Positions 1,990-61,174 of a stretch of DNA of 64,000 nucleotides are shown here, piece after piece. How positions within the stretch are numbered: the first letter of the stretch is position 1; every line of letters begins with the position of its first letter. The notes under the pieces were generated by a model. The model searched no databases. It worked only from the letters and a program-made list of their open reading frames with translations, and had not been told where the DNA came from. The position numbers were made by a program, and so were the translations under genes. This stretch comes from Cephalotus follicularis (lineage: Eukaryota > Streptophyta > Magnoliopsida > Oxalidales > Cephalotaceae), in the NCBI GenBank assembly GCA_001972305.1, contig BDDD01000911.1, forward strand, positions 443,441 to 507,440. The letters are read 5' to 3'.

Positions 1990-2175
1990 AGTCGACTTTT
2001 TTTCCATAACAGTCGGCTGGATCCTTGAGTCAGTCGACTGCTCTTCCCAAGCAGTCGACTGCCTTCCTTCGACAGTCGACTATTCTGGGTAACATTGCAT
2101 GCGCAGTCGACTGGTATTACATGCCAGTGGACTGGATGTTTGAGTAGTCGACTGCTTTAGTTGAGCAGTCGGCTG
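1990..2175. repeat. Phased AGTCGACTG array (LTR1, array a)
   Basis: Nine copies of AGTCGACTG or close variants (AGTCGGCTG, AGTGGACTG) start at 1990, 2011, 2032, 2053, 2074, 2105, 2126, 2146 and 2167. Steps are 21, 21, 21, 21, 31, 21, 20 and 21 bp, that is two or three DNA helical turns. Sequence between the words is not conserved, so this is not an ordinary tandem repeat. The core GTCGAC is self-complementary, so the word reads nearly the same on both strands. Function unknown. Confidence 0.9.
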
Positions 2176-2849
2176 TTCTGGGTTGGACAGTAACAACTCA
2201 CTGTTAATTCATCCAATCAAGCAACTGAACTTATTCACATGTATTCAAACCTCAAAATATCATCCATAATCATACATTAGTCTAAAACACAACTCAATTT
2301 ATGCATTATTCATTGTTTTTATCATAATTCAAATGACACCCAAATATGGCATTGCATGAAAACCATTCAATTCTCCATTCAAAATTCAGTAAGCATGTTA
2401 GGTTATCTATCAACAATAACCACAACAACCATACTGTAATCCTCATCCAAAACAACTGTACCATTCCTTTATAACACCATTACTTTTAAACTTAAAAAGC
2501 ATGCATAAAATCCTCTACACTACCCCTGCCTTTGATTTCAAGTTAGAAATCGAAAGTCCACCTCTTTGTGTCTCCTTTCCAGAATCCTTGAGTTTCCCAG
2601 TAACTCCAAGAACCGTCCAGCAGCTTCAATCCAAGCTCCAAGCTTTAACAATGGAGGATCCTCTCACTTCCTCACTATTTCTCACTCAAATTCTCACTGT
2701 CTTTGCTCTCAATCTCTCTGGTTCATTATTATCAGGTTGTAGGGTCAGAGAGACGAAGGGCAGAAAGCATATATGAAGTCTCCTCTCCTTCAACCCCTTT
2801 GCATGGCATAAAAGCCCATTCCTCTCACAATCACTTGCAAGCACACCCA

Positions 2850-2886
2850 CATGTCCCCCTTTCTCTTTCTCTCTGTCGTTGCAGGT
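2850..2886. other. Pyrimidine tract ending TTGCAGGT in LTR1
   Basis: A C/T-rich tract (ccccctttctctttctctct) ends in gttgcaggt on the plus strand, like a plant 3' splice acceptor. Equivalent tracts ending TGCAGGT occur in LTR2 (about 28480-28518) and LTR3 (about 7330-7384), each 120-175 bp before array b. If the LTRs are minus-strand, the tract is antisense to transcription and would be a purine-rich stretch in the RNA. Role unknown. Confidence 0.45.
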
Positions 2887-3003
2887 CCTGACGTGATGGT
2901 GCATGCCCAACACATCCTATTTATGATCAGATGGCGCCTGTAAGTTATCTTATCAAGGGCTGCATGTGATCTCGTCACATGCAGAGAAAACAGGGCACGA
3001 TCC

Positions 3004-3152
3004 AGTCGGCTGCCTTTCCCTGGCAGTCAGCTGCTTCGCCTGGCAGCCTGTTGCCAAGTGTCACGCAGTTGGCCAGTCAACTGGTTCCTCACGCCAGTCG
3101 ACTGCCTCTCCCTTTAGTCCAACAGTCGGCTGGTATATCTCACCAGTCGGCT
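3004..3152. repeat. Phased AGTCGACTG array (LTR1, array b)
   Basis: Words at 3004 (AGTCGGCT), 3025 (AGTCAGCT), 3045 (decayed), 3075 (AGTCAACT), 3096 (AGTCGACT), 3124 and 3145 (AGTCGGCT) are spaced 21, 20, 30, 21, 28 and 21 bp. It is the same word class as array a, about 900 bp away. It lies about 165-315 bp from the inferred 5' end of the LTR. Confidence 0.85.
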
Positions 3153-3318
3153 GTCCAGGCACAAATCCCCACAATTATACTTAGAATCACACTTCTAAAT
3201 GCTCTAATTTAATCTTGAATGCAAGATATCAACCAGGAAATTCGCCTTTTATTAATTCAAGGTAAAGATTAGATCAAGGATTACAACAATACATGAAATT
3301 GAATTTCCGGGCGTTACA

Positions 3319-4560
3319 CAAATTGAGTACCATAGAGGTAGTGCCTCCATTTATGCAAAGCGAACACTATGGCTGCAAACTCAAGATTATGTAAGGGATA
3401 GTTTTCCTCGTACGGCTTTAACTTCCTCGACGCGTATGCAATCACCCTACCATGTTGCATAAGTACGCAGCCTAAACCTTTCCCAAAAGCATCAGTATAG
3501 ACAGTAAAACCCTCATTTCCTTCCGGTAACGCCAACACTAGAGCCAAAATCAACCGACTCATCAACTCTTGGAAACTTGACTCACAAGCATCATCCCAAA
3601 CAAAACTTGACTTCTTCTGAGTCAACTGTGTCAACGGTGTGGCGAGTTTCGAGAAGCCCTTGATGAACCTTCGGTAGTAGCCAGCCAATCCCAAGAAACT
3701 ACAAACCTCAGTAACGTTTCTCGGTTGGGACCAATCAACAATACTCTCTATCTTCGAAGGATCCACTGACAATCCTTCACTCGACACAGTGTGACCTTGG
3801 AAAGTCACATGATCCAGCCAAAATTCTCACTTACTGAATTTGGCGTATAGCTATTCCTTCCGTAGTGTCTGCAATACAATTCTCAAGTGCTGCATGTGTT
3901 CCTCAATGCTCTTCGAATAAATCAGGATGTCGTCTAGGAATATAACGACAAACTGGTCAAGATAGGGTTGGAACACTTTGTTCATCAGACACATAAAGGC
4001 TGCAGGAGCATTTGTTAAACCAAACGGTAGTATCAGGAATTCGTAATGCCCATATCTGGTTCGAAATGCGGTCTTCTCCACATCACCCTCTCTGATCCTC
4101 AACTGATGATAACCTTTTCTCAGGTCAAGCTTGGAGAATACAGTAGAGCCTTGCAATTGGTCGAACAACTCCTCAATATGTGGCAGAGGATACTTTTTCT
4201 TCACCGTTACTTGATTTAGCAGCCTGTAGTCAATGCATAACCGCATTGATCCATCCTTCTTTTTCAGAAACAAGACCCTTGCTCCCCATGGTGATACACT
4301 TGGTCTGATAAAGCCCTTATCAAGATAATCCTGCAACTAAATCTTAAACTCCTTCAGTTCGGCAGGAGCCATTCGGTACGGTGCTTTGGATATAGGAGCA
4401 GTTCCAGGCAATAGTTCAATACTGAACTCTATATCCCTCTGCGGTGGCAACGAAGTGAGTTCATCTGGGAATACATCAGGAAGTTCACATACAACAGGCA
4501 CTTGTTAATTACTAGGCGTACCTTTCTTATGATCAATCACATACGCCAAATAGCCTTCGC
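3319..4560 (-). pseudogene. E1 pol, reverse transcriptase and RNase H
   Basis: The RT part (4336-3851) reads [18 protein letters not shown], then [13 protein letters not shown], then PFGLTNAP and the catalytic FLDDILIYS, the gypsy form of the polymerase YxDD motif. RNase H (3808-3324) follows with [25 protein letters not shown]-type sequence and the TDA motif of the catalytic domain ([11 protein letters not shown]). The N-terminal linker ([17 protein letters not shown]) lies at 4345-4500. Breaks: TAG at 4337-4339 (KI-stop-LQD), and stops near 3810-3850 where a Cys and a Gln codon are lost. LTR1 interrupts its end at 3318. E2 is a close relative over the whole length. Confidence 0.9.
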
Positions 4561-4564
4561 ATCC

Positions 4565-4987
4565 TTACTTGAGATACTTCTGTGCTCGAGTATATGAAAT
4601 GATCGGAGCAAAAACATTCTTCTCCCCGATAAACTTGCACTCAGTCCCATCTTGAAGGTAAAAAGTCATCATCTTGTTATAGCAATCAACACAAGCATGA
4701 TGAGTATATAGCCAATCCATCCCCAAGATTACATCAAAATCCCAGATAGGTAATACTATCAAGTCAGCAGATAACTGAATCCCAGCTACCACGATCTCAC
4801 AATCTTTCATTATGGTGGCAGATAGAAGACAATTACCAGTGGGAGTACTCACCTCCAATACATAAGGTAGTGTAGAAGTAATACCATGCAAATTGCGAGC
4901 AAATTCAGATGCAATAAATGAATGTGTCGCACCAGGGTCAATCAATACATGAGCTAATATGCCAGATATATAAATAGTACCTCCCAC
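4565..4987 (-). pseudogene. E1 retropepsin-like aspartic protease
   Basis: This open stretch of 140 codons carries VLIDPGATHSFIA, the flap-to-active-site block of plant gypsy proteases, and later LPIWDFDVILGMDWL, the conserved C-terminal ILGMDWL motif. The active-site triplet is DPG instead of the usual DSG/DTG, so catalysis is doubtful. In an active element it would cleave the Gag-Pol polyprotein. It sits between the gag zinc knuckle and RT, the normal position. Confidence 0.9.
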
Positions 4988-6067
4988 AACAATAGTAGAT
5001 TATGGCACATCATCTTTAGATAAGGTGTAGAGCCTACCTTTCACAATCCCTTTCCCGGTATCCTTCCGCAGTTGAGTAGCCGCAACACTACCACTTGCAC
5101 CAGCACTTCCTTGTTAGCCGCATGCTTGATCCCTCATCATTGGACAACTGTTCAGCATATGTTCGTGTGAACCACATCTCAAGCACTTTCCCATCTTCTT
5201 CCAGCATTCAGTCTCATCATGATTCTGACGACCACAAAAAGTACATCCACATGAATTCTGTTGACCGCTTCGGTTAGGAGTCCTTGATCATGAATTTCTG
5301 CGTCGAGAACCTCCTTGACCTTTGTTGTCAGACTTTGTTGACTTAGCAGGATTATTACTCCTCTGCCCCTGTGATTTTGTGGCCCTCGATTGATTAGTAC
5401 GAGTCCGTTCCGCCCTTCTCTCATTCGTATCTGCTTCCAGAACCATTGCCCTCTCAGCAACATCTACAAAAGAGGTTAGCTACAACATCAAAAGTTTAGA
5501 TCTGATGTCAGGTCGAAGGCCTTTTAGGAACCTTCGGATCATCCGTGCTTCACCTTCCCCAAGATAAGGTGTATGTCTCACCAACTCCACGAATCTAGTC
5601 TGATACTAAGCTACCGTCATGTCCCCTTGACGTAACTCCATTAGTTCGGTCTCCCTCCGGTCACGCTCGATCTATGGCACATAAGTTTCAAGGAACTCAG
5701 ACTGAAATCTGTCCCAAGTTCTGTCAAATCCACGAGATTCCCATTTTGCTTCAGTCCTTTCCCACCAATAAGTAGCCTCGCCCCATAAGCGGTATACAAC
5801 AAAGTTGAGTTTCTGCTCATCAGTACATTTCGGGGCAGCAAGTATTTTCTCCAAGTCTCTAATCCACTGCTCGGCCACAGTGGCATTCAGCTCACCATTA
5901 AATGTCGGAGGATTCTGTCTCATGAATCGCTCAAGATCTAGGCCAAATCCACAGGTATGACAAGCTTCAGGAGCCTGATGATAGGCTCAGTTAGCGTTGT
6001 ACATTTGCCAAATCTGTTCCATGTTCGCCGTATTAGCTTGCATCTGTTGTTGAAAGAGGTCAGCCAT
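4988..6067 (-). pseudogene. E1 gag (retrotrans_gag domain and CCHC knuckle)
   Basis: The start is taken at the ATG at 6065-6067 (MADLFQQQMQ). A TGA follows in frame about 26 codons on, after MYNAN. The open part at 5923-5672 holds the retrotrans_gag core: NPPTFNGELNATVAEQWI, LWGEATYWWER and FLETYVP. After a stop at 5672 the same frame carries GDMTVA, RRFLKGLRPDIRSKL and AERAM, then a basic region and a knuckle of form CX2CX4HX4C (CLRCGSHEHMLNSC) near 5150-5190. It would form the particle and bind the RNA. Several stops show it is dead. Confidence 0.85.
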
Positions 6068-6495
6068 GCGGTCAAAGTTACTCTGCAGCCAGTGACGTCT
6101 CCTATCACTCGACTAACGGCAATAGCATAGACAATCAATTCAGTAACAATATTACATATATCTATAATATGTAATATTTTAATATTTTTCATTTTTAGAA
6201 AACCTAATAGTTCAGTCAGTGGTTCTCTTGTGGGAACTAAATAGTAACAGTGCCTCTATTAAGAGGAAAATAGCAGTTGTATACGATAGGATTTTCTATT
6301 AGAAATCCGTTGTTGAAAATCATTAATCATGCTTTAAGCATTAAGTTGGTAAAATCCTTGAATATGTATATATAACAGTAGTAATTTCATTAAATAACAG
6401 TAATAATAGTTACAATATAGCAGATCAAGGATAATTGCAATCACAAACAATTTAATCGATCAGTTTACACATTTCTACATTTACTGTTCTAAAGT

Positions 6496-6630
6496 GTCGA
6501 TAGATTCTATGTGAGCGTCGACGGTTTATGACTAAGCGTCGACACTACACAACTTAAGCGTCGACATTCTAAGCCTTAATATGCCATTTTTGCACCAAAG
6601 CGTCGACTGTCTGAACTAAAGCGTCAGCGC
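6496..6630. repeat. Phased GCGTCGACGG array (LTR3, array a)
   Basis: Cores of GTCGAC or near variants start at 6496, 6517, 6538, 6560, 6602 and 6623, with steps of 21, 21, 22, 42 and 21 bp. Words are of type GCGTCGACGG/AC, with one GCGTCAGCGC. The intervening sequence is not conserved. It lies at the position where homologous LTR2 has AGTCGACTG words. Confidence 0.9.
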
Positions 6631-7554
6631 TTCTGGCGTTTTTTTGAATTTTAGGAGCAATATCAAAACAGGGGATGCACAAAATCAACCCAAACTCAGT
6701 TCAATTTAACATGCAATCAAGTATTAACCATCACTACACATCATACATGTTATATGTTCAAAAACATGTCAAAACCCCTACCTCAATTGCTATCCCGAAG
6801 TCAAATTGAATTGACCTCTCTCTTTATGTCCAATGTTTTTTAACAACTCAACTCTCAATTTCAGCAGAAATTAGCCTGAACAATTGCATGTTTACAGGTC
6901 TATAAATCAATACCAACAATTTTATTCAGTTATCTAATCATGATAACATCAAGGAATCAAATCAGAAGCTATAATCAAATTCTTATGTTTCGCTTCTCCA
7001 TTTTTTGATTAACTCTTACGATCGAACTACTGATTTACATGTTCAACAGTAGGTATATCATTGACATCAACATGTTTACATAACCATCTTAACCACAGTA
7101 AGTGAGCTTCGAATTGTAACTTACCTGGAATCAAAGCTTCAACCTCTTGAACTCTTCAAACTTTAACATGTAGCCTCTAGCACTTCCCAGCAACTGTCCA
7201 GCTAGTCCTCCTCTTCCTCAGTGTTTTTCAACTCTCAAATAACTCAAGTATCAGCTGATATAAGTGCTCAATTCCATGTCTTTCATTCCTCAGTTGGTTT
7301 AACTTTTAATGCACATTTCTCTCTCCCTCATGCATGCATTCTCTCTTTGTTTTCTCTTACCCTTTTCTGCTGTGTTTTGCAGGTTGGAGGTCAAAAGAGA
7401 CATGCAAAGCTCCTTGGTTTGGCATTATCAACAATTGGTAACGTTTCCTTGCATGATTGACACGTCGCCGGACACTTAGCTTGCAAGGAAAACCATTTGG
7501 CGCCACTGCTCTGTTCTAACAGGCGTGTGTCACATTCTTGACACCGCGTAAAGC

Positions 7555-7670
7555 CTCGACGGTTTTCTCTCTGGCGTCGACGGTTTGTGCCTTATAACTC
7601 AGCCTTCAACTGCGCGTTTGTACACGTGTCAGGGCTCAAAGCGTCGACGGTAAAACGTTAGGCGTCGACG
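7555..7670. repeat. Phased GCGTCGACGG array (LTR3, array b)
   Basis: Clear words at 7576, 7643 and 7664 (GCGTCGACGGTT), plus decayed ones at 7555 (CTCGAC) and around 7605-7628. The steps 7555-7576 and 7643-7664 are 21 bp. The word class is the same as array a of this LTR. It lies about 150-270 bp from the LTR 5' end. Confidence 0.8.
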
Positions 7671-7822
7671 GTTTGGCACCAGAAATTATTTCTTTAGTTT
7701 CTCATCTAAGAATTTTATAATAACATTGTTCAATTAAAAAAGGTAACCAACATATCATCTCAAAAAGTATATTTATTCATCGTTGGGTACAAAATACATG
7801 AATTGAAATTGAGGTTATTACA

Positions 7823-7839
7823 TTCCCCCCTCCTTAAAG
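7823..7839 (-). other. Polypurine tract of E2
   Basis: On the minus strand this reads CTTTAAGGAGGGGGGAA directly before the LTR start TGTAATAACC. A polypurine tract at this place primes plus-strand cDNA synthesis in LTR retrotransposons, and it fixes the LTR boundary and element orientation. Confidence 0.85.
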
Positions 7840-7863
7840 AAAATTCGTCCTCGAATTTAGCCT

Positions 7864-9429
7864 TTACATTCCGAACAAGTGGGGAAATGTCTCCATCATT
7901 TCATCCTCACGCTACCATGTAGCTTCCTCTGCTCCGTGAAAACACCACAGCACTTTTACCATGGGAATAGTCTTCTTCCTTAGCACCTTTTCCATTCAAT
8001 CCACTATCCTCGTCTGTCTTTCTTCATAAGACAATCTAGGACTGATGAATCCAGGGTCGTAGGTCAATATGTGAGATGGGTCGGGTATGTATTTCCGTAA
8101 CATGGAGACATGAAATACGTTACGCACATCCGAAAAACTAGGCGATAGTGCAATCTGATATGCTACATCCCCCACTCTTTCCAGTATCTCATAAGGCCCT
8201 ATATACCTCGGTGCCAACTTCCCCTTGAGGCCGAAACGGTGTATCCCTTTCGAAGGCAAGATCTTCAGGAAAACATGATCCCCGTTCTCAAACTCTAGCT
8301 TTCTTCTCTTGCTATTGGAGTAACTCTTCTGCCGACTTTGTGCAGCTAGCAGTCACTTCTTGATTATTTCCACCTTATCAGTAGTCTTTTTTACCAAATC
8401 TGGTCCTATCACTTGTCTCTCACCTACCTCGTCCCAGCAAATAGGTGATCTGCACTTTCTCCCATACAAAGCTTCATAAGGAGCCATTCCAATGCTGGTG
8501 TGAAAACTATTGTTGTAGGAGAACTCAATCAATGCCAGATTATCCTCCCAACTCCCAGAAAAATCAATCATGCAAGCCCTTAGCATATCCTCCAGAGTCT
8601 GAATGGTACACTCAAACTGTCCGTCGGTCTGTGGGTGGAATGCAGTGCTAAAGTTCAAGGTTGTTCCCATAACTGCTTGGAATTTCTTCCAAAACCTTGA
8701 AGTAAATCTAGCATCTCGGTCACAAACAATATTTATTGGCACCCCGTGTAATCTCACTATCTCCTGGATATACAGTCGAGCAAGCTTCTGGATAGAATAC
8801 GTCATGTTCATCAGAAGGAAGTGAGCAGACTTAGTGAGTCTGTCCACTACTACCCACACTGCTTCATGCTGATTCCGTGACCTCGGAAATCCTGATACGA
8901 AGTCCATGGTCACATGCTCCCATTTCCATTTAACCACTAGTAGCGATTGTAGCAGTCCCGCAGGTTTTAGATTTTCACCCTTCACTCTCTGATAGGTCAA
9001 ACATCTTGCTACGTATTCAGCAATCTCTCTTTTCATACCATTCCACCAGTAGTTCTTTTTCATGTCATGCCACATCTTGAAACTTCCAGGGTGAACACTG
9101 TATTTTGACTTGTGATCTTGTTGCAGTAGTTCATATTTGATGCCCTCATCATTCGGAACATATATCCTCCCTTGGAACCTCAGTAAGCCATCAGTATGGA
9201 TGGAGAATTCAGAATCAGTGTCTAGGTTCTCACGAATACTCCATAGCTGAAAATCACTATACTGAGGAGTCAGAATATGCTCCAGAAGTTCCGGTTGTGC
9301 TCTCAGACTTGCCACAATAACTCCACGGGAAACCATGAACGGATTCCATCTCTGAAATTCCTCAAATAGCTTCCACTGTGAAACCATTGCTCCAGCAATC
9401 ATAGCCTTGCGACTCAGTGCATCCGCCAC
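7864..9429 (-). pseudogene. E2 pol, integrase with C-terminal chromodomain
   Basis: The long open stretch 9429-8353 begins with the RNase H tail ([10 protein letters not shown]). It then has the zinc-binding region (YWWNGMKREIAEYVARC), whose last Cys is changed (CLTY instead of CLTC), and the catalytic core: MDFVSGF (Asp), CDRDARFTSRFW (Asp), then TDGQFECTIQTLEDML (Glu). After a stop near 8350, GIHRFGLKGKLAPRYIGPYE and VFHVSMLRKY follow (8259-7996). A chromodomain-like tail then reads PMVKVLWCFHGAEEATW with two stops, ending HLFGM at 7864. Chromodomains steer chromoviruses to marked chromatin. This is the best-preserved integrase in the window, but broken. Confidence 0.9.
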
Positions 9430-9450
9430 TACACTCGACTTTCCTGGGTG

Positions 9451-10789: not shown

Positions 10790-10794
10790 AGCAT

Positions 10795-11399: not shown

Positions 11400-11400
<1 letters not shown>

Positions 11401-15809: not shown

Positions 15810-16996
15810 TGTTGAGTCATAATCATGGAGAGATTGTTAAATCTCAATTATATGTTTTAATGATTACAAATTTGCATTTAACATGTTTGTTTAATGTGCA
15901 AGACATTAGAAAGTTTGCTGTCAAGACAAAAATCTTCTGCAGGACAAAAGACATTGATCTTCCAGAAAAGAAGTCGACGTCCGTACCGAAGAAGTCGACT
16001 CCTATAAGAAAGACATCGACGTCTTTCTTGCCGAAAGTTACAGGACAAATTCTGGTGAAGACATCGATCCATACCAGCAAAGAAGTCGACGTCCGTACTA
16101 AAGACATCGACGCCTTTCAATGAACATCGACGCCTTCCTAGAGAAACCTGGATTTCCCAGAAAACACATCGACGTCCACAGAAGAAGTTGACGAGATGTT
16201 CAAAGTGTCTATACCTGAAGATTACCTAGAAAAGACATTGACGCCTTATGAAAAGAAGTCCACGCCTTTTTGAATGAACAAGACCCTGGAAACATGGAAC
16301 GACTATTTCAAGCACTACAACGGCTATCAGCTACAAAGACATCGACGCCTTTATGAAAGAAGTCGATGTCTTTATGCCAGCAGAGACAAAAACAAGGCTG
16401 CATCAACACATTGTTATATCCAATAAGCCCAAGATCTTTGCAACGGCTATAATCTGAAGAATGCTATAAATACAAGCCAACAAACAAGATTTCAGAGACT
16501 TGAACACAACATTTGAAAATCCAATCTCAATATCTCAACTTGCACATTTACAAAGAGAAAGAACATCAAGCTTTTGCTTATGACTTTCATATCCAAAGCT
16601 GATATCTAGATTACACTTTCACATCCAACCTTCAAGAGGTTATTGTAAACACAAAACAAATCTTTCTATCATTCATTGTATTTGAGGGGAGTGAACCCTT
16701 GTAAGGTGTTTATTGATTTGCACCCGGAACCCAAAATCAATTGTAAGGTGGTTTGTTTGATTTGCACCCGTAAGCCGAAAATCAAAGGTTGCTAGGGGAT
16801 TCTAGTGGAAACTCAAGAGGTCTTGAGAAAGTGGACGTAGGCACAGTTATTGCCGAACCACTATAAATTTTGTTTGCACTCTCTATCCCTTAACTCCTTA
16901 TTTATTTTTTATTGTGTGATTGTTTCTGTTCATAGCTTAATTTGTTATTTCCGCGAACAATTTGCATTAGTTAAAGGTTGCCATACGTTACCTTCA
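15810..16996 (+). mobile_element. Solo LTR, copia type, 1187 bp, TSD gaagg
   Basis: The block starts TGTTGAGTC and ends TTACCTTCA. The 5 bp gaagg at 15805-15809 recurs at 16997-17001, and removing it rejoins copia A RNase H in frame (AAKEG|VWMKKF). Near its end are the pieces 'aagtggacgtaggcacag' and 'gccgaaccactataaa', a combination familiar from SIRE/Maximus-type copia LTRs; that lineage is a memory-based guess. Strand is from that resemblance. The first 90 bp are homologous to the mini-insertion at 22981-23089. It contains a phased GTCGAC array. Confidence 0.9.
15973..16367. repeat. Phased AGTCGACGTC/CATCGACGCC array in copia-type solo LTR
   Basis: Cores (GTCGAC, ATCGAC, GTTGAC, GTCCAC) start at 15973, 15994, 16015, 16063, 16085, 16106, 16126, 16168, 16187, 16237, 16258, 16341 and 16362. 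Most steps are 19-22 bp; larger ones are 42, 48, 50 and 83. Because 21 bp is seven codons, one frame shows a fortuitous KKSTSVP-like heptad. This is the longest array in the window and it sits in a different retrotransposon superfamily from the gypsy arrays. Confidence 0.87.
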
Positions 16997-17323
16997 GAAG
17001 GTGTATGGATGAAGAAGTTCATCAAAGATCTGGGTGTTGTTCCTGACATTGAAGATCTAGTATCTTTGTACTGTGATAATAATGGAGCGATAGCGCAGTC
17101 CAAGGAGCCTGGATCACACTAAAAGTCTAAGCACATTCTCAGGTGCTTTCACCTTATATGTGAGATTGTTGATCGTGGAGATATAAAAGTGGAATGAGTT
17201 CCAAGTGAAGACAATATTGTAGACCTGCTTACTAAGGCACCACCAAAGGCGGTCTTTGACAGACACCTTCATGCTATGGGTGTGAGACACTATCGCAATT
17301 GGCTTTAGCACTTAGTGGGAGAT
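16997..17323 (+). pseudogene. Copia A RNase H, C-terminal part
   Basis: The sequence resumes after the solo LTR with VWMKKFIKDLGVVPDIEDL, then LYCDNNGAIAQSKEP, the final catalytic block of copia RNase H. A TAA after GSH near 17120 and further changes end it. The pol end 'cttagtgggagatcgttaga' runs into the 3' LTR. Confidence 0.88.
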
Positions 17324-21803: not shown

Positions 21804-22186
21804 GTCAACGTACCCCATTTAAGTGAAATCGTCCAAAACAGTAGCTTAAACGTCAACGTTTAACTTATAGGCGTCGATGCTTATCTCCCTTAAGTGTCGA
21901 CGCTCCCATCGTTAGCGTCAGCGCTTACTTCATAACCTGTACACGTCAATACTTGTGTTTGGCGTCGACGCTTCAAGGTAAGAATGCTTGAGCAACAACG
22001 CCTTAATCCTTAGCGTCGTCTCTTTGAGGTAGGAACCCACGTGTCAACGTTCACAATCATTCGTTCCCTTGTTCAAAGCTCCAAGGTGTCAGCGCTTTTC
22101 CATTGAGCGTCAACAGTTTTCGTCGAACCAGTATTCGTTTCCTGTGTCACAATCCATAGCGTCGACGCTTTCCATTAAGTGTCAAC
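21804..22186. repeat. Phased GCGTCGACGC array (LTR F)
   Basis: Cores at 21804, 21831, 21852, 21873, 21896, 21917, 21945, 21964, 21994 (decayed), 22015, 22043, 22088, 22109, 22161 and 22181 are mostly 19-23 or 27-30 bp apart. Many show CG to CA changes (GCGTCAACG), as expected from CpG decay; GTCGAC is intact at 21964 and 22161. It occupies the position of array a in LTR1 but uses the other word. Confidence 0.82.
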
Positions 22187-23894: not shown

Positions 23895-24121
23895 GTCAAC
23901 GTATATGTCCAAAAGCGTCGACGGTTTAATACAAAGCGTTGGCGCTTTTAGCCTAAACGTTAATAGAAGGCGCCGCACAAAGCGTCGAAGCAATTCATTG
24001 CAAAACACTACTAAAGTGTCATCGTTAACATGACAACACACAGCTAAGCGTCGACGGTATGCATGACAAAACACTATGAAAGCGTCGACGCATACATATA
24101 ACACACAACCAAAGCATCGAC
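23895..24121. repeat. Phased GCGTCGACGG array (D LTR, array a)
   Basis: Cores at 23895, 23917, 23938, 23959, 23984, 24018, 24050, 24084 and 24116. The first half steps by 21-25 bp and the second half by 32-34 bp. Intact words GCGTCGACGG/CA stand at 23917, 24050 and 24084; GTCAAC, GTTGGC and ATCGAC are variants. Confidence 0.82.
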
Positions 24122-24912
24122 AGTTAAGCCTTAAAATTTGACAAAAATGAAATAGAGACGACGCTTAGCAAATGCAACACAGTTTTCTATATGCATAGGG
24201 GTCATCATTTTGGATTGTAAAACGTGTACAAAAACCAGTTTCCTCAACATGAAGCAGTAAAACAATGATATACATGCAGCAAGACACGATTTTCTGATTA
24301 AAACTAGCTGTAGGAAACTTTTCAATATACGTTTATAAATTAGTTGTAAAAAAACTTAGTTTTTCTTCAACATGCATCCATAAAACAGTAGTATTCAAGT
24401 TGTAAACCATGTTTTCGATGCTTTGGAAAGTACCAGTATAACATTTCTATGCATAAACATACTTATATATAGGTTACACGAAGTAATAACGATTGTTAAA
24501 ACATATTTTCTGGCGTTTACACAATTTAAAACAGTTTTCTGGTATGGCATTTCTAAGGCAATTTTCATGACTAAACAACAAGGTTTGCATAATCTAATGA
24601 TCAATAACAGTAGTATATAATGAAAACTAAAACTTATGTTCAGAATATACCTTCAGACGATACCAAGAACGATGAAAAATGATGAACAATAGTGCAAGAA
24701 AATGGCTGCTTCTTCTGGTTTGCAAAATGTGCAGGCGATGGTTTTTGAAACAATGCAGTGATTTGTTTTTTTTGAAGAGGTAAAAACATGTGATTTCAAA
24801 TGGAAAAATGTGTGGCTTAATGACATTTCCTTTCATGCAGATACGAGTCCAATCACAGATGGAAAGAAGACAATCAGATTAATGGCAAAAATCCTTTTTC
24901 CAAAAATAAACC

Positions 24913-25061
24913 GTCGTCCAAAAAAAATAAGGAAGACGACATAAGCGTCGCCGGTTAATCAAAGGCATCAGCGTTTAACTCTTAAAGCATCGACGGTTAA
25001 TCAAAGGAGTCAGCGCTTAACCTAAGTATCAAAGCATCGATGCTAAAGCAATGGTTTCGAC
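24913..25061. repeat. Phased GCGTCGACGG array (D LTR, array b)
   Basis: Decayed words at 24913, 24947, 24967, 24989, 25009, 25036 and 25056, with steps of 34, 20, 22, 20, 27 and 20 bp. ATCGACGG and GTCAGCGC forms dominate. It lies 135-285 bp from the LTR 5' end, as in LTR1, LTR2 and LTR3. Confidence 0.75.
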
Positions 25062-25252: not shown

Positions 25253-26176
25253 TCAATCAAACAAGCGAGGGTATTCCTCCCAAATTTGTTCTTCCAATTC
25301 CCATGTAGCCTCACTCTCCAGATGATTCTTCCACAAGACCTTAACAAAATGAATGGTCTTGCTTCTCGTAACCCGCTCCTGTCGATCCAGAATAGCTTCC
25401 ACCTCCTCCTCACAAGATAAATCCTCTCGAATCCTATCCAAAGGATAGTGGACCACATGAAGGGGATGATACTGATAACCCCTCAACATAGACACATGGA
25501 ACATATTATAGACATGTGCTAACTGTGGAGGCAAAGCTAATCGATAAGCAACTGCTCCAACCTTTTCCAAAACTTCAAATGGTCCTATAAACTGAGGACT
25601 CAACTTCGCTTTCAACCCAAATCGATGGACTCCTTTCCACGGTGAAACCTTCAGAAATACAGGTTCACCTGCTTTAAACTCCAAGTCCCTTCGATTTTTA
25701 TCTGCATAACTATTCTGCCAGGATTGAACTACCTTCAATCTTTCCCTAGCTATAGTCACTTTATCAGTAGTGATCTGAACTACCTTGGGTCCTTCAATAA
25801 CTCTTTCTCCTACTTCATACCAACATGTCAGAGCTTGACACCTCCTCCCATACAAAGCCTCAAAAGGCACCATCCGAATGGTAGCATGCCAACTGTTGTT
25901 GTAGGCAAACTCCACCAAGATCAAATACTCATCCCAGTTTCCAGTCCACTCTAAGGAACAAGACCTCAACATGTCCTCTAAAGTATGGATAGTCCTCTCA
26001 GACTGCCCATCTGTGTGTGGGTGGAAAGCTGTACTGTAATTGAGTCGTGAGCCCCATGCTTTCTGAAACCCTTTCCAAAACCACGAAGTGAAACGGGGAT
26101 CCCTCTCTGAAACAATGAATACCGGTGTCCCATGAAGTCTCACTATCTCCTGCTAGAAAACCTCCGCCAAACGGTC
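25253..26176 (-). pseudogene. D pol, integrase core and chromodomain
   Basis: Open for 296 codons. It starts within the integrase core at [20 protein letters not shown], where the usual SDRD is SERD (catalytic Asp to Glu). It then has [20 protein letters not shown] with the catalytic Glu, the [20 protein letters not shown] region, VFHVSMLR-like [11 protein letters not shown], and a chromodomain at the end ([20 protein letters not shown], then EEYPRLFD). The chromodomain makes D a chromovirus. The upstream part is beyond LTR2 at 28926. Confidence 0.92.
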
Positions 26177-27510: not shown

Positions 27511-27622
27511 AGTCGGCTGCCTTCAAGAGTAGCCGGCTGCTTTGGTTGAGTAGTCGACTACTTTGCCTTAGCAGTCGACTGGATAGGGTTGAGCAGTCGA
27601 CTGCCATGAAGAATAGTCGACT
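27511..27622. repeat. Phased AGTCGACTG array (LTR2, array a)
   Basis: Six words at 27511, 27531, 27552, 27573, 27595 and 27615, stepping 20, 21, 21, 22 and 20 bp. Four are AGTCGACT(G/A); the first two are AGTCGGCTG and AGCCGGCTG. This is the cleanest short example. Confidence 0.9.
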
Positions 27623-28671: not shown

Positions 28672-28748
28672 AGTCGACTGTCTTCACTGGGCAGTCGGCT
28701 GCCCTACCACGCATTAGACAGTCAACTGCCCCCCTGTGGCAGTCGGCT
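28672..28748. repeat. Phased AGTCGACTG array (LTR2, array b)
   Basis: Four words at 28672 (AGTCGACTG), 28693 (AGTCGGCTG), 28720 (AGTCAACTG) and 28741 (AGTCGGCTG), stepping 21, 27 and 21 bp. The word class is the same as array a. Confidence 0.87.
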
Positions 28749-30376: not shown

Positions 30377-32553
30377 TGTAGAACAAAATTTTATATAACA
30401 AAATATGCAGCGGAAGAACACCCAACAAAAGCAAAAACAGTCCATTATGGCTTGACCACAGGCCACATGGATCACCACATCAACACAAGAGTTGAATTGG
30501 TGTCACCATAGCAAGTTATGGTGACAAACAAACTTGGGAACTAGATAGGGAGACAAGGATATATACCTACAAATGTTGGCTCCTTCGTCTTTGCCGCTAC
30601 TAGCTTGCGAAGGCTCCTTCTTTACTGCCCTCCAAGACGTTCAGCTACTGCTCCCAGCTGATGCACACCAGAAGGAAGAAAAAAAATAGTTTCCTTATGC
30701 ACTATCTCTTTCTCTCTCAAAACTTATAAAAAGGAAAATTGAGTTTGATTAATGCAATAAAAAGCAATATGCCCGAGATAAGTAACTTGCTTGGTGTTTG
30801 TAGGTGAAGGAAAACTCTAAGTGTAGAGAGAATACTCTTCTCGTTTTGCCCAGCAAAAAAAAAAAACCAACCAAACTGAAACATTTTCTGCACAAATAGC
30901 TTCTCACCAGCCCACATTCCCTCTCTCCCACTCTCCCACAAACATGGGATCATGGTCCTCACTCCCAGGGAGTATGTAGCCATGTTCCCCACGTTTCCAT
31001 AACGTGCATTGATGGGAGAAAACTGCTGGAGATGTGAGAGAAAACGTGCCCATGAAGTGAGATCGTGCACAGGCTGCACAACCCGAGCTAAGCGTCGACG
31101 CTTTCAACAATAGCGTCGACGCCTATGGATTACATGGCACTAAACGTCAACGTCTTTCTAAAAGTCATCAACGCTATATAAGCCTTAAGCTTTGATGCTT
31201 CCCTGAATGCGTCGACGCTTTGTCTAAAGGAAAACGCCGACACTTTCCCAAAAGGCATCGACGCTTTGACTGGTATATAAAGCATTTTGAGTATAAGTCC
31301 AACTTATTTAATCCCTTCTAATATTGATTAAGTAAAATAAAAAAAATGTGTTTCCACAAAATGTAAAATCCACATAACCGATATTTGACACCAAAACTTA
31401 ATATGTCCAACATATTAAAGAACTAATCATTATTGGGCAGGGACCCTATAAAATCTTGGTTAAGACCAGAGGTGTTCATAAATTACCGAAATACCCCTAG
31501 GGTTCGGTTTAGCCATTCTAAATGGTCCTAGACCAATTTAAATGCTCTCGGAATAATATCTAATATTATCCAGATGGAAAAATCAATCTAATTAATCTTT
31601 TCATAATTTATTACACAACTCATTAACCCTAGATTTTCTAAGTTATCGGTTCACATGTACTAAAATCCCTTGTCATACTTGGCCCCGATTGAGGTCTAGG
31701 GTAAGGATGTGTGTCAACCCTGGATCATACCTCAATGGCTAAAATATTTGATCATTACTAGGACCTTTGGTAAACTCTCCAGGAATCTAATTTCCAGTCT
31801 ACCTCAACCTTGGCCAAGGATTTCATAAGTCCAAAGTATAATCAGATCATAATAGAGCCGATCACCTTCGCTCAGGTGTGATAATCCCTTATTGCGCACT
31901 CACTTATATTTGTATAGATTCGATCATACCCAAAGACCACCCGATTGTCAGTCCTGAGCAAGGACTGGGTAAGGTGGAGATCAAAGCATAACCGTCTCCA
32001 TACAATATAGAGCAATCGCTCAGGTCTAAGGATCAGACGAGGTTGAGAACTCACTAAGTGATCATCACTTATACACAACCACAACAAGTAGGAGTCAATA
32101 CTGACACGAGAATAGTGACTATCCAAACAGTGTCTCCTATGCGGGTCCTGTTCAGTGCACACGCTCCCAGCACGCACCCCGTATTTGCCCTAGTGTCCAA
32201 CACAGATGGTAGTGAGATAAACCATCCTCCAATTCCATGAGCAGGCAACATACGCACAAGTCTATCCGGTTCACTAATGCCCAGAAATTGAACCTATGAC
32301 TTGGAACTAATTCGACATAAGGAATAAGGTAACCAATCTCATAGCCTCCATGCTAGGCATCCAACCTTATGTCAGGGAATCACAAGTGTAAGCAGGTAAA
32401 TAATAAACTACTACAATTAAGTGATAAAATACAAGTTATATAGCCATAACAAAATTAGCCCACATCATATATACAAGGAATAAGATTGTTCATACAAGAT
32501 AAGATATAATATGGCAACCCATCTAATGGCTTGTCGGGTCACTATATCTAACA
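30377..32553 (-). mobile_element. 3' LTR of copia C, about 2177 bp
   Basis: On the minus strand it starts TGTTAGATATAGTG (32553) after the pol end. The low edge is placed at 30377 because the minus strand there ends TTGTTCTACA, an imperfect match to the inverted start, shortly after a CTTCCGCTGC block that also stands near the end of the copia B LTR. Between 30322 and 30376 lie 55 bases of unassigned filler next to the truncated D RT. It contains a phased GCGTCGACGC array. The left boundary is uncertain. Confidence 0.72.
31094..31262. repeat. Phased GCGTCGACGC array (copia C LTR)
   Basis: Cores at 31094, 31115, 31146, 31167, 31211, 31236 and 31257, with steps of 21, 31, 21, 44, 25 and 21 bp. 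Words are AGCGTCGACGC at 31094, 31115 and 31211, plus GTCAAC, GCCGAC and ATCGAC variants. This is the gypsy word in a copia LTR. Confidence 0.87.
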
Positions 32554-41397: not shown

Positions 41398-41403
41398 AAA
41401 TTT

Positions 41404-41421: not shown

Positions 41422-41514
41422 GCGTAGTGAGTGTCATAAAAATAGCTTAGGGACCTTAGTTATTCAAAAAAAAAAAACCTTAAGAAAATTTCTTTTTTCA
41501 CTGTAGATAGATGC

Positions 41515-42840: not shown

Positions 42841-42849
42841 CTAGCCGAT

Positions 42850-43777: not shown

Positions 43778-43784
43778 TGGAGCC

Positions 43785-44342: not shown

Positions 44343-44363
44343 CCATTAGAATCAGAGGGTCCA

Positions 44364-47899: not shown

Positions 47900-47904
47900 A
47901 TTAC

Positions 47905-56413: not shown

Positions 56414-58711
56414 TGTAAGCCCCGAGCATAGATGTCCATACTTGATTGTATTTATATGGTATTGTACGATACTGTATTTACAGATGGTATGGATTGTATA
56501 TATATTATGATATTTTCCACTTTTATGATTCTTTATGGGTTGTGGGGGGTTCAACCGAACCTAGGCCATGTTTTCCAAGTTATCGCCTAAAAGAGTCTAT
56601 ATAGACGAGTTGATTCTTTCTATTCTCATTTTAATTTCTCTTCTCCTGTTCTAGAGAGAGTGTGAGTTAGAAAGAGAGTGGGCAGAATTCAATAAGGAAG
56701 GAGTTGTTGGGTTCGTGACGGAGATTGGAACTTGAAGGAAGGATCAAAACTAGGATCCAACATCGAATCAAGCTTGTTCTTCGTTCTAAATAGTTTTGAA
56801 GTAGGTTCTACGTATATGCTTTGGAACTTGCATATTGTATGGATTTGTATGCTTATATGGTTATGGATGGATAGATGCATGTTAGATGGATGAGTTAGGG
56901 TGATTGTTATGCTTGATTATGGATTAGAATGGAAATCAGAGAGAGATTTGAGTGTTTTAAGTCTTTAGGCGTAACTTCCTCTCTCTCTTCATTATCGGTA
57001 TATGGGTACGGATTTCAAGGTTTTTAACTTGTTTTTAAGCTACAATCTACCATTGGGGCTTATAGCTTCCTTTGGATCAGGTTTTAAACGGTTTTAAATG
57101 GAATTTGACTTCGTTTTGGCTGTTAAAAATTAACTAGCGTATGAAATCGTCAACCCTTTCGTTTTAACCGTCAACACTTTTAATGTAAAATTATAAACTA
57201 CCGACACTTTTGGATGCGATCCTAAATCGTCGACGCTATACACAAACCGGCGACGCTTTGCTTAAACCTTAAACTGTCAACGCTTTGCTCAAACTGGCTA
57301 CGCTTTGGCCTAGAACCATAACTGTCGATGCCTTGAGTAAGGGTTGGCGCTTTGTACACTGTTTTTACACAAAACAACATGTTTTCAACATATTTTCATC
57401 TCCAAACTCTTTTATCTTCAAATGGGTTCCATAAAAAGCCTCCTTACGGCCATGTAACCTATGCGAACCCTTCTTTAAACAATCAAGCTTCAAATCAATC
57501 TTCAAAATGGATTTTAAAGAGGTTTTCAATAAATGGTTAGGTTAGTTCAATTGGGATGTTTGGAAGCAAATATCCTAGTTGGACCTCCTTTTCATTGTTT
57601 TATTAACTCCGATAGGGACTGAGAAAATGGTTATGGAAAATGGCTATGAAAAAATGGTTTTGGGAATGGTTTTGATGGATGGACCCGACATGATCCTTTA
57701 CGGTTAGGTCCCTATCCTTTAAATGGTTATATGGTTATGGGTGATGAGTCTTATATGGTTATGGTTTGTTATTGTTTGAGACTTGATGAGATAACCCATT
57801 CATAATCTTCATTTCTCTCATGAACGTTATGGGTGTTAGACCATATTATATGGAGGGAAATGGGACACCACTTGAGGGGTGGACTTACAATGGACACCGC
57901 ATTGTGGATGGACCAACGAAAATATGGTATGGGCTATGACTTATAAAGGACTAACAATATGGAATCGTTGATGTGGTCAGTCTTATCTTGACCTCGCTCA
58001 GCTATGACCCCGAAAAGGTAGGTAGTTGGTGGCAGTGCTATCTTGAGCCAGAGGGGCAGAGTGATATTCAGACCTTATGGATATTTTGTACCCATGGATG
58101 GTTATGGATTGACTTATGGAGTGTGTGTAGACCTATGGTCTTTTCTATGATTAGGACTCGTTAAGTATGCCACCGCTTAGGGACGGTTAGCGTTCTTACG
58201 CTGTCCACAATTGGCATTCATGTATATCACATGCCATGCATATATCTGTATATATTTGTTCACTTCATTGCATATAGTATTGCCTACAAAGCCCTATTTG
58301 GCTGACCCATTCTCGAAATGGGCACAACAATTTAAAGAAGAGTGCTAAGGATGCCTCGACGCCAGATGGGACTGTTTGCAGAGCAGGATTTCTAGTTGCA
58401 TTGCAGTTTCCTTTATCTACCTTACTGTATAAGAGACCTTTTGTATGAGACTGGTTGTATAAGACTTTTGTATTTTAGTTGTATTCAACTGTCGGCTTGT
58501 GGCAGCGCTTAAGACGCATATGATATGATGTGTATTATCTTTGGGTGCATCTATACAAGTATTTCAATGGTTGTTTCCGCATGCATAATTGTGTATTAAA
58601 GTTTTAATTTATAGCGTAATTTGGGTATTATGCTATGTATAAAGATGGATCGTATGGACGGACCTGGCACGTGTCAGGCCATGGGGTTCTCTCGTGGTTC
58701 AGGGTGTTACA
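56414..58711 (+). mobile_element. 5' LTR of gypsy G, about 2298 bp
   Basis: It ends AGGGTGTTACA seven bases before an initiator-tRNA primer site, so orientation is plus. The start is placed at TGTAAGCCCCGAG because it mirrors the end and coincides with the break of the gene upstream. Its last 500 bp match the E LTR remnant. It carries one phased array. 56640-57130 has no feature I recognise. Confidence 0.78.
57149..57349. repeat. Phased, decayed GTCGACGCT array (LTR G)
   Basis: Cores at 57149, 57170, 57200, 57229, 57250, 57276, 57296, 57324 and 57343, steps 21, 30, 29, 21, 26, 20, 28 and 19 bp. Words such as CGTCGACGCT, TGTCAACGCT and CCGACACTTT are of the GCGTCGACGC class with a changed leading base. 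Confidence 0.75.
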
Positions 58712-58718
58712 ACTTTAG

Positions 58719-58730
58719 TGGTATCAGAGC
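58719..58730 (+). other. Primer-binding site of gypsy G (tRNA-iMet)
   Basis: TGGTATCAGAGC, the exact complement of the plant initiator-Met tRNA 3' end, seven bases after the LTR. Confidence 0.95.
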
Positions 58731-58876
58731 ACCTACTTTATGTTGGCTATGCCAAGATAGGATCATTGGCTATTGCAATTAAGTGTTATGGATAAGACTT
58801 TCATTGCTTCAGTTTGTTTTGGAATTATGGTTGAGATAAGTGGATTTCTGACCTTTTTCTCTTATACAAGGTATAT

Positions 58877-58994
58877 ATGGAAGGTCGTCAGAGAGGAACT
58901 GCTAGAGGAGCCAGAGGTAGACAGCCAAGTAGGCGTACCAGGGCTAGTAGGGGTGTTGAGGAGCAAGAAGGAAGTAATGTAGTACTAGATGTTG
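58877..58994 (+). pseudogene. Gypsy G gag N-terminus, cut by LTR I
   Basis: Starts MEGRQRGTARGARGRQPSRR, then TRASRGVEEQEGSN, matching the gag start of E (MEGQR, RRTRASRDVEEQEEQN). Open for 39 codons without a stop and then broken by TGTAATACCCCG. The rest of element G is not in the window. Confidence 0.85.
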
Positions 58995-60442
58995 TGTAAT
59001 ACCCCGTTTGTTCCTGTGCATATGTTCGGGCTTTTTATTTGTTTTGTTATATGTTGGACTTTTTTTTTATTTATGGGCTCTTGTGTTTTGGGCTATATGA
59101 TATGTTCTTTGGGCTTTTGTATATAGGATGTTAGAATGTTGTTTTGGATTCTTGCCATATTGTTCTCCTTAATGTTTCTGAGTGTGTTAGGAAGTCCCGA
59201 GATGTCTTGTTTTGGTTGTAAACTGGTTTTGAAAAGAACCGTTGGTATTTGACAATTAATTTGGCTATTTTTATATGTTAGCAACCGATTAGAATTTTGG
59301 TCTCACTCATTTAAGTAGCCTCTGCCAGAAATCTATCCCATGATTCAGTGTTCTTTTACTGTTTTAATGCCATATAGAGTCTTGTTTAAATGATTATGAT
59401 CCTCTGGTAATGTGGTAAATTGATTTTGGACGACTAAGTATGCAATGAATTGGAATTTGCTTCTCCTTAAAGTAAGATCACCATTGCATGATTCTTTGTG
59501 TTTAAATGCAACTGTTATGTCACATAAGTCTTATTTAAGTGTTTATAATCTTCTAGTATTGTAACATTGGAGTTTTGACAGCAAAATTGCATCGAACTAC
59601 CATACTTTGTCTTTCTGTCGCCCAGAACAGTCAGCTGTCAATGTAAATAGTAGACTGTTAGGCTTTGAGTAGTCAACTGCCTTGTAAAACAGTCGGTTGT
59701 TTTGCCTTGCACAGTCGACTGGACCCTTGTCACAGTCGACTGGCTGCAGCCCAGTTTGTGTAGTCGGCTGCCTATGCTATACAGTCAACTGCCACCCTTT
59801 GAATAGTCGACTGGACTTTGTTACAGTCGGCTGGTTTTGTCTAGTAAAATTATGGTTTCAAGTTTTATTATTCGTTTGTTCTTCTAATGATTTGGAGTCT
59901 GTTTTATACACTGTTAAATTGATGTTTGATGTTCGGAAGTGGTTTTGAATCCTTATATGAATGATATTGCATATTTTAGATTTTTGTGCTACGAGGGGCA
60001 TTTAGAAATCGTTGAACAATTCATAAGTCACTTTTGTGTTCACTTAAGTTACAGATTCTTCGTTCTTGGCTTATTCCTTCCGTTTAACTGAAATGAATTC
60101 AGTTTTGTTTTAGGAACATGATTCCTTTGGTTTTATGAACTCCGTTATGCTCTGAATTTTGATATGTTAAGAAATGAAGTCGGTATGATATTTTTGTGAA
60201 AATGAATATTTTCTGGCCTTATAATTCGATTCTGAATTGTTTACGAAATGTTATCCAATCGTCTCTTTATTTTGAAAATAAATAAGATGATATTCCGTAT
60301 ATGAAAGTATAATGATTTTGATATGGAACATGACTTCTACTATCGAAGTATGTGAAACGAACATGACTTTCACTTTAGGAAGTATGTTAACATTGAATAA
60401 GGATATACAGAGATATTTCCCACCTATGGGGCGTACCATAGG
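58995..60442 (+). mobile_element. Truncated LTR I, gypsy type, inserted in G gag
   Basis: Starts TGTAATACCCCGTTTG in the G gag. It contains 'cccacctatggggcgtacc' at 60419, whose reverse complement is in the D LTR at 23358. As D is a minus-strand LTR, this one is probably plus-strand. Array-to-block distance also agrees (about 590 versus 520 bp). It stops at 60442 where the H LTR begins. Confidence 0.7.
59629..59832. repeat. Phased AGTCGACTG array (LTR I)
   Basis: Ten words at 59629, 59649, 59671, 59691, 59713, 59734, 59762, 59783, 59805 and 59825, steps 20, 22, 20, 22, 21, 28, 21, 22 and 20 bp. AGTCGACT at 59713, 59734 and 59805; AGTCGGCT, AGTCAACT and AGTCAGCT elsewhere. Confidence 0.9.
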
Positions 60443-61174
60443 TGTAGCGCCCCCGACCCGAGTCCACTTTAAGCTCAAAGCGAGCTCCGAAGATCGGTGC
60501 GTTACGTGGGGTGAGACCTTAATCATCAAATCGTTTAAAGGCTAAGCTTGGATGGTGTCATCCATGACCTCACCCATGTGAGCTTGTCTCCATGTGATGA
60601 AATTAAACCAATTCAGCTGATGCCACCTGCCCTATAGTAGCAAAATATCATAATTCATCCATTCCTTGCTTGACACGTGCCCTACAATTCATTGAAATCC
60701 TCCAAAATGGGATAAAAGCTAGAATTATGCATCTGACACAGGGCAAAGCGTCGACTCTTTACCTCTAAGCGTCGGCGCCTAAGGGTTTTACCTGAGTTTT
60801 TCACCTCTATCCCGACTAAAGCGCTGACGCTTTCTTTCAAAGCGTCAACGCTTTAAGTCTCCTCCAGGTCAATCCTCAACATTTGACCTCGAAGCGTCGA
60901 CTTTTACATTTAAATCATCGACCGTTACTACCAAAGCGTCGACGCTTTAAGTGGGACTGTCGGCGCTTAAGACAGTTTTCCTCCTCATCACTTAGCCAAA
61001 AATTTTCTTCTGGGGGCGCTGCCCCCTGAACCCCCGTCTGCTCACCGGGGAGCGGAACCCCCGTACTCCCCGAGCGTAGGGTCATACTACGGGTCCCTTG
61101 AAATATTTGCCAACTACACAATAGCAATCATCTTTCCATATTTAATATCTTTACTGGAAATTCGGGTCATTACA
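60443..61174 (-). mobile_element. 3' LTR of chromovirus H, 732 bp
   Basis: On the minus strand it starts TGTAATGACCCG after the polypurine-like AAGGAGGGTAGATTG and ends GGGGGCGCTACA at 60443. The flank is atagg, but the far copy is outside. It contains a GC-rich block with a GGGGGC-GCT-GCCCCC hairpin at 61012-61026 and a phased array. I first took 58995-61174 as one LTR; the inverted block, the mixed words and the second TGTAGCGCCCCC end favour two. Confidence 0.72.
60750..60965. repeat. Phased GCGTCGACGC array (LTR H)
   Basis: Cores at 60750, 60771, 60823, 60844, 60896, 60917, 60938 and 60959. Steps 21, 52, 21, 52, 21, 21 and 21 bp. Every 52 bp gap is five helical turns (52.5), so all eight remain in phase. 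Confidence 0.88.

Follow-up and report, generated by a model that had tools for sequence, protein, structure and literature searches.

Palindromic repeats in plant transposable elements

Repeated palindromic motifs in long terminal repeats (LTRs) have been described in several plant retrotransposons, and here they are compared with fourteen arrays of a palindromic word with the core GTCGAC in a 64-kb stretch of the 1.58-Gb genome of Cephalotus follicularis (G000:C911:443441-507440, contig BDDD01000911.1; hereafter the window). In 13 Sireviruses, the RM boxes are repeated palindromic motifs that precede the TATA box in the LTR; each element has at least eight copies, and further ones lie in the linker ahead of ENV. 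The boxes are absent from the classic Ty1/copia elements examined (PMC2829016). The core CGG-CCG is found in 12 of these 13 Sireviruses, Tnd-1 (ACAATCGATTGT) being without this signature, and the RM box of the grape element reads CGGTCGACCG (PMC2829016). Maize Sireviruses carry clusters of the palindrome CACCGGACNNNGTCCGGTG in the cis-region of their LTRs, and in the structured regions of maize Helitrons no motif is commoner than this same palindrome (PMC10760457). Arrays of sometimes palindromic repeats are likewise found in the LTR cis-regions of Tnt1 and Retrolyc1 (PMC10760457). Short repeated words that vary between related elements also occur in non-coding DNA of the VANDAL elements, but these are DNA transposons, their VANC motifs are words of 8-9 bp and the binder is encoded by the element; neither palindromy nor phasing is mentioned in the parts of the two papers used here (PMC5735166, PMC10398659).

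The original prediction on this window knew of no described plant LTR feature of such a kind. This has to be corrected in view of the RM boxes (PMC2829016) and of the maize CACCGGACNNNGTCCGGTG clusters (PMC10760457). What is new here is the presence of the arrays in Ty3/gypsy elements, their helical phasing, the occurrence of one word in two superfamilies and their abundance. Among the papers listed by a literature search that covered few subscription papers, no description of such arrays in Ty3/gypsy elements, or of their helical phasing, was found.

Spacing of the palindromic cores

The arrays reported in the window are real. A scan for at least three cores differing by at most one mismatch from GTCGAC, with gaps of at most 75 bp, gave 16 clusters, among which all fourteen predicted arrays were recovered; the two extra clusters, at 5227 and 40476, contain no exact core and are chance-like. 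There are 43 exact GTCGAC in the window versus a mean of 4.3 (maximum 13) in 20 runs of a first-order Markov model, and 38 of the 43 fall inside the fourteen arrays. Close pairs of exact cores number 17 versus none in the 20 Markov runs, and by this measure GTCGAC ranks first among the 64 six-base palindromes (the runner-up has 5). Successive cores with up to one mismatch are mostly 21 bp apart (28 steps), followed by 20 and 22 bp (6 steps each), which agrees with the predicted clustering at 20-22 bp. The arrays had also been predicted to contain unrelated spacers. They are mostly, not wholly, unrelated, with an identity of 0.416 within arrays versus 0.321 between arrays (54 spacers).

The same core was counted in the whole genome, where GTCGAC occurs 849,481 times and the reversed control CAGCTG 231,366 times; about 0.1 million cores would be expected by extrapolation if the Markov rate of the window held genome-wide. 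Pairs of exact GTCGAC were counted from start to start in six distance windows, without collapsing families, so that copy number weighs in these counts; the uniform random expectation is 1,372 pairs per three distances. At two helical turns (20-22 bp) there are 166,339 pairs (control 1,742; 121 times random). Three turns (30-32 bp) are represented by 7,931 pairs (control 146; 5.8 times random) and five turns (50-52 bp) by 26,369 pairs (control 407; 19 times random). At 3.5 turns (35-37 bp) and 5.5 turns (55-57 bp) the counts fall to 964 (control 153; 0.7 times random) and 1,424 (control 88; 1.0 times random). Exact GTCGAC pairs prefer whole helical turns, with the exception of the 25-27 bp class discussed below. 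The whole-turn enrichment and the two troughs support the predicted placement of the sites on one face of the helix. The longer steps named in the original prediction are scarce in the window by itself (three at 31 bp and one at 52 bp) and become convincing only genome-wide.

A sample of 194,534 bases, including 16,338 N, was used for finer analysis. One of its stretches, L022 (G000:C4950:10001-20000), is N throughout. After removal of the clusters without an exact core, which excludes array 24913, the 50 arrays of the sample were sorted into 36 groups by sequence. When each group was represented by a single array, the best-fitting period was 10.25 bp (statistic 121.5; none of 500 jittered sets exceeded 64.9); this test takes in the multiples of 21, and the odd turns are supported separately by the genome-wide counts at 30-32 and 50-52 bp. 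When all 6-mers with at least 20 occurrences were screened for recurrence at 20-22 bp, the top 40 consisted of fragments of the words or of their near flanks, together with microsatellite-like and A-rich 6-mers.

Two nearly exclusive words

The single GTCGAC word of the original prediction resolves into two nearly exclusive palindromic words, CAG(T/C)CGACTG and RCGTCGACGY, and a variant core, GCCGAC, that had not been named. The flanks of the core match as a palindrome at offsets 1 to 3 (z of 6.7, 6.9 and 3.5), weakly at offsets 4 to 6 (2.0, 1.5 and 2.8) and not beyond (142 sites). Genome-wide, CAGTCGACTG occurs 197,377 times (reversed-sequence control 939) and GCGTCGACGC 73,186 times (control 121). 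The chimera CAGTCGACGC is found 6,335 and 6,380 times on the two strands, and this total of 12,715 represents 11% of the 114,416 expected if the halves were independent. One flank type also dominates within arrays, with a mean of 0.837 versus a maximum of 0.607 in 2,000 shuffles; 33 of the 36 groups could be classified, the other three having too few classified halves. GC and AC flanks are mixed within arrays and were therefore merged as one RC class; a few arrays combine CA and RC flanks, for example the array at 9831 of L020.

The CAG class clearly tolerates one core variant, GCCGAC. Among the CA..TG words of the sample with at most two mismatches (143 in all), 41 have the core GTCGAC, 48 have GCCGAC in either orientation and 2 have GCCGGC, forming the doubly substituted CAGCCGGCTG; these words include those of L032, their families are uncollapsed, and the single L025/L032 stretch supplies 22 of the 27 GCCGAC words in forward orientation. 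The dependence between half-sites (p 0.005) rests on non-independent words, many of them from this stretch. Around exact CAG words, the 51 cores at 20-22 bp (at most one mismatch) comprise 24 GTCGAC, 21 GCCGAC in either orientation, 5 products of CpG decay and 1 other. No single form is commoner in the sample than GTCGAC; GCCGAC is a major variant, which reaches 88,572 and 88,820 occurrences genome-wide as CAGCCGACTG (controls 708 and 622). The idea that the GCCGAC variant keeps one sense orientation was dropped: most arrays hold one orientation, but arrays differ.

Occurrence in two superfamilies and position before the TATA box

The CAG word is found in elements of two superfamilies. In stretch L019, a chromovirus pol is followed by a polypurine tract and an LTR starting at ~5165; a CAG array lies ~1.1 kb inside this LTR (6293-6475), and TATAAA follows 10 bp later. 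The joined stretch L032+L025 (C6450:3001-20000) contains a Ty1/copia Sirevirus whose LTRs (4061-5031 and 13974-14988) are 92% identical. This element has three polypurine tracts (~13622, 13691 and 13962 of the joined stretch), the terminal sequence reading AGGGGGAG AT TGTTGG. With at most two mismatches, there are 22 words in its 3' LTR, 20 in its 5' LTR and 4 in the linker. Those of the 3' LTR are mainly arranged in fours at 20-21 bp, the groups being 51-66 bp apart, and along the LTR (1,018) the words extend from 167 to 794 with TATAA at 848. The arrays stop directly before a TATA box in both elements checked end to end, the chromovirus and the Sirevirus. When the Sirevirus LTR was compared with L019 and with the window regions 805-3318, 27000-28883 and 6200-7823, similarity with E at most 1e-3 was confined to the arrays.

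The four linker words are located at 9722-9785, after pol and before an open reading frame (ORF) of 417 amino acids, apparently with a nested insertion in between. This ORF (L025 5118-6368), upstream of the 3' LTR, matches Transposase_32 (PF20167, 1.2e-19) and may belong to the Sirevirus or to the nested element. An extra ORF of sunflower Athila also has a Transposase_32 domain (PMC11728184).

The Sirevirus in L032+L025 fits the description of RM boxes in most points, excluding the CGG-CCG core. Both systems consist of repeated palindromic motifs with dyad symmetry, visible here in the excess of CAGTCGACTG and GCGTCGACGC over their chimeras. The number of copies is at least eight per element in this Sirevirus and also in the solo LTR 805-3318 of the window (15 cores with at most one mismatch). 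The grape box CGGTCGACCG has the core found in the Cephalotus arrays, but most words here are without the CGG-CCG signature, their core being GTCGAC. RM boxes occupy the upper half of the LTR before the TATA box (PMC2829016), whereas the Sirevirus words here precede the TATA box but extend past the middle of the LTR. RM linker copies precede ENV; the four linker words here precede the Transposase_32-matching ORF. RM boxes were called Sirevirus-specific with respect to other Ty1/copia elements (PMC2829016), whereas the words described here are also present in Ty3/gypsy chromoviruses. The host hallmarks of Sireviruses, namely multiple polypurine tracts and the succession tract-AT-TG, are displayed by L032+L025 and not by the chromoviruses. 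By analogy, the chromovirus arrays would work like RM boxes in host elements that lack these hallmarks. Section 9 and the spacing-related passages of PMC2829016 contain no analysis of spacing or phasing. The maize palindrome CACCGGACNNNGTCCGGTG is another word than those found here and is discussed as RNA structure and as a small-RNA target, and Ty3 elements had no clear peak of such structure in the part of the maize study used here (PMC10760457).

Arrays and host elements of the window

The word CAG(T/C)CGACTG composes the arrays 1991..2173 (10 cores with at most one mismatch, 6 of them exact; steps of 21/21/21/14/7/31/21/20/21 bp), 3005..3151 (5 cores, 1 exact), 27512..27621 (5 cores, 4 exact), 28673..28747 (4 cores, 1 exact) and 59617..59831 (9 cores, 3 exact). 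Individual words are GCGTCGACG in array 6496..6607 (5 cores, 4 exact; steps of 21/21/22/42 bp), GCGTCGACGGTT in 7555..7669 (4 cores, 3 exact), AAGCGTCGACGCTT in 31094..31262 (6 cores, 3 exact) and AAAGCGTCGACGCTTT in 60750..60964 (7 cores, 3 exact, the final four spaced exactly 21 bp). Array 15973..16263 (10 cores, 3 exact) has words resembling AAAGACATCGACGTCTTT / AAGAAGTCGACGTC. RC-class words are found in 21804..22186 (11 cores, 3 exact), in 23895..24162 (7 cores, 3 exact) and, decayed, in 57149..57329 (6 cores, 1 exact), while the five cores of 24913..25061 are RC-like, decayed and include no exact GTCGAC. On the + strand, TATATAAA starts 11 bp beyond the final core of array 31094.

The arrays had been assigned to LTRs, and this placement is established to different degrees. 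Both LTR ends and a target duplication are available for 2 of the 14 arrays: 1991 and 3005 are carried by a solo LTR of 2,514 bp (805..3318, given without orientation; TG...CA on both strands), flanked by the 5-bp duplication CAAAT at 800-804 and 3319-3323. This solo LTR interrupts a Ty3/gypsy pol of which an uninterrupted duplicate, 93% identical, is found at 8766-10788. Two further arrays are placed by an LTR start and a polypurine tract. Array 7555 lies ~150-270 bp into an LTR that starts at 7822, with a polypurine tract at 7829 (minus strand), and adjoins a chromovirus-like pol; array 6496 probably belongs to the same LTR, whose far end is unmapped. For arrays 27512 and 28673 the placement relies only on a match to an LTR start next to pol: 28673 lies ~170-250 bp into an LTR whose start matches at 28920, beside a Ty3 pol, and 27512 probably lies within it too. 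The LTR ends are unmapped for the other eight arrays, seven of which have relatives in the sample or the window, array 24913 being outside this comparison. The relative of array 59617 in L019 is inside the chromovirus 3' LTR, directly before TATAAA. Array 15973 is located within a ~1.2-kb insert (~15812-16997) in a copia reverse transcriptase; its reading as coding sequence was rejected, no frame being open across the whole array. The array is not universal in LTRs, since two LTR pairs of the window carry none (35669-37329/51775-53435 and 39688-41398/46214-47900).

Over 309 bp, the end of pol and the LTR start at 7762-8067 of the window are 90.6% identical to those of L027; beyond this stretch the LTRs have unrelated sequences, with different words. 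Such similar pol ends on unrelated LTRs (window 7450-7830, L027 9380-9760) suggest that LTRs may have been exchanged between lineages.

Several other features were observed in the window. A chromovirus integrase C-terminus with a chromodomain (PF00385) at 25253..26152 (minus strand) indicates one kind of element present. The best pol matches with a named source, among the 8,000 top candidates that were scored, come from Asteraceae, at 73% and less. Region 2-10788 contains two Ty3/gypsy pol regions 93% alike, apparently with one common LTR (pol-LTR-gag-pol, the gag start being judged by eye), a tandem layout that resembles the mutual-LTR elements of sunflower (PMC11728184). The element at 39688-47900 has 1.7-kb LTRs that are 94% alike; the four ORFs scanned within 41446-44831 had no Pfam family match, and related ORFs (38-50% identity) are found at 8187-9740 of L025. 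At 19866-20462, long ORFs occur on both strands, that of the + strand being a gag match below the Pfam cut-off.

Proposed function and alternative explanations

We consider that the arrays are probably cis-regulatory platforms in U3, in which a dimeric DNA-binding protein would occupy promoter-proximal sites on the same face of the helix. Such a protein, one of the causes proposed in the original prediction, would be the simplest explanation of the dyad symmetry, the whole-turn spacing and the mostly free spacers. Each word would be a dyad-symmetric site, and neighbouring sites two turns (20-22 bp) or larger whole-turn steps apart would place the dimers on one face of B-form DNA, where they could bind cooperatively. 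Two turns would be the tightest whole-turn packing, because words of at least 10 bp could not be spaced by a single turn. Palindromic dimer sites with neighbours ~21-22 bp apart are known for EBNA1 and LANA in herpesvirus latent origins; their palindromy and spacing are similar, but they function in viral episomes and no relation is claimed. Scans of viral contigs for pairs of the words gave three matches for one word (L009-L011, isolated pairs with no longer array) and none for the other.

The end of the array beside the TATA box suggests promoter activation, and an array in this position would most likely recruit transcription, or counteract silencing, for the element. The existence of two words that hardly mix would point to a pair of related binders, or to two specificities. 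As the CAG word is common to Ty3/gypsy chromoviruses and a Ty1/copia Sirevirus, a host factor is favoured over a protein of one element. There is a precedent for such sharing between kinds of element, since CACCGGACNNNGTCCGGTG is found in maize Sireviruses and Helitrons (PMC10760457). For this reason, and because VANC6 motifs occur in an unrelated element (PMC5735166), word sharing alone is no proof of a host factor. From the sequence we infer protein binding, activation by this binding and a host origin of the binder. That a single host protein family with two specificities was captured independently by LTRs of both superfamilies can be proposed only tentatively, and we regard it as possible but doubtful.

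Several observations weigh against this regulatory proposal. Pairs at 25-27 bp (2.5 turns) number 5,964 (control 241), which is 4.3 times random; 35 of 50 among the matches listed are at 27 bp, many of them similar in sequence. The odd-turn peaks are at ~30, 51 and 71 bp and not at 31.5, 52.5 and 73.5 bp, so that they lie roughly 1 bp below the multiples of 10.5. In the Sirevirus LTR, a duplicated unit of ~125 bp accounts for part of the regularity. The association with the TATA box is modest in the 36 arrays, of which 7 have an outward TATAWA within 30 bp versus 2.6 by chance (P 0.015). Between copies, identity is 447/557 (80%) in cores, 1043/1362 (77%) in spacers and 4082/5585 (73%) in flanks, from 13 overlapping pairwise alignments with gapped positions removed and including window 7450/L027 9380, whose LTRs failed to align. 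The core excess is weak, and stronger conservation of the words between copies was not used as proof. Finally, the two Sirevirus LTRs differ at 12 of 200 word positions versus 27 of 774 in the rest, as would be expected if words containing CpG were free of constraint once inserted. Since the words change no slower after insertion, it is the replicating lineages, not resident copies, on which selection, if any, would act.

An element-encoded anti-silencing protein is the alternative that keeps most weight, although we judge it rather unlikely. As with VANC, word and protein would coevolve and binding would remove methylation. The arrays agree with this scheme in being short repeated words in non-coding DNA that differ among related elements: arrays 7555 of the window and 9556 of L027 follow similar pol ends and LTR starts, in unrelated LTRs with different words. 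VANC targets are also short motifs in tandem repeats, varying between related elements, and VANC6 motifs are found in the unrelated AT9TSD1 (PMC5735166), so that word sharing alone does not exclude such a protein. Sunflower Athila and Tekay encode extra ORFs (PMC11728184). Nevertheless, one word is common to two superfamilies here, and no common extra protein was found, although no systematic search for one was made. The strings 'palindrom' and 'spacing' are absent from the main text of PMC5735166.

It is improbable that the palindromes act as RNA, the transcripts of the arrays forming hairpins that would seed small RNAs and host recognition. Both arrays that were folded (2 of the 14) are more stable than their shuffles (z -6.87 and -5.10), and small RNAs are concentrated on the palindrome clusters of maize Sireviruses (PMC10760457). 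However, any repeated palindrome would fold strongly, so folding may be a side effect, and hairpins explain neither the whole-turn spacing with its troughs at 3.5 and 5.5 turns nor the end of the array before the TATA box.

An equally improbable explanation takes the word for a stress-factor site, G(C/T)CGAC, recognized by AP2/ERF proteins of the CBF/DREB type, which would make the LTRs inducible by cold or drought. AP2 proteins usually bind as monomers, and monomeric binding would leave the symmetric flanks unexplained. The core of the C-repeat/dehydration-responsive element (CRT/DRE), (A/G)CCGAC, corresponds to GCCGAC, a major variant, yet the most frequent single form in the sample remains GTCGAC. 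As a lead and not a test, GTCGAC and GCCGAC fit the motif (G/a)(C/t)CGAC of barley HvCBF1 (PMC3602543), and RM boxes match chiefly stress factors (PMC2829016). Arabidopsis CBF3, for its part, was not recruited to GTCGAC elements, according to data not shown in that paper (PMC5209670).

Diverged, functionless 21-bp minisatellites are a very unlikely origin of the arrays. Some array parts do score as tandem repeats of 20-21 bp, spacers within arrays are slightly similar and the Sirevirus LTR contains duplicated blocks. But mostly the word alone is shared within arrays, enrichment at 30-32 and 50-52 bp is not expected from a pure 21-bp satellite, and the similarity of the Sirevirus LTR to four other LTR stretches (E at most 1e-3) is confined to the arrays. 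Nucleosome positioning, in which phased words would fix the DNA on the histone octamer and which had also been predicted, is very unlikely even though the fitted period of 10.25 bp is near the nucleosomal value, because nucleosome signals are short dinucleotide patterns, unlike a long, specific word of 10 bp with two versions that hardly mix.

Implications

If a dimeric factor reads the arrays, the 849,481 cores would represent a very large set of putative sites across unrelated element types. The arrays would then offer naturally occurring variants of spacing in which cooperative binding in helical phase could be studied, and the convergence of retrotransposons on one host regulator becomes testable. 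Should both superfamilies have captured one host protein family, a large share of the elements of this genome would be under a single helically phased cis-code, which could act as a genome-wide switch that activates unrelated elements together or shields them from silencing.

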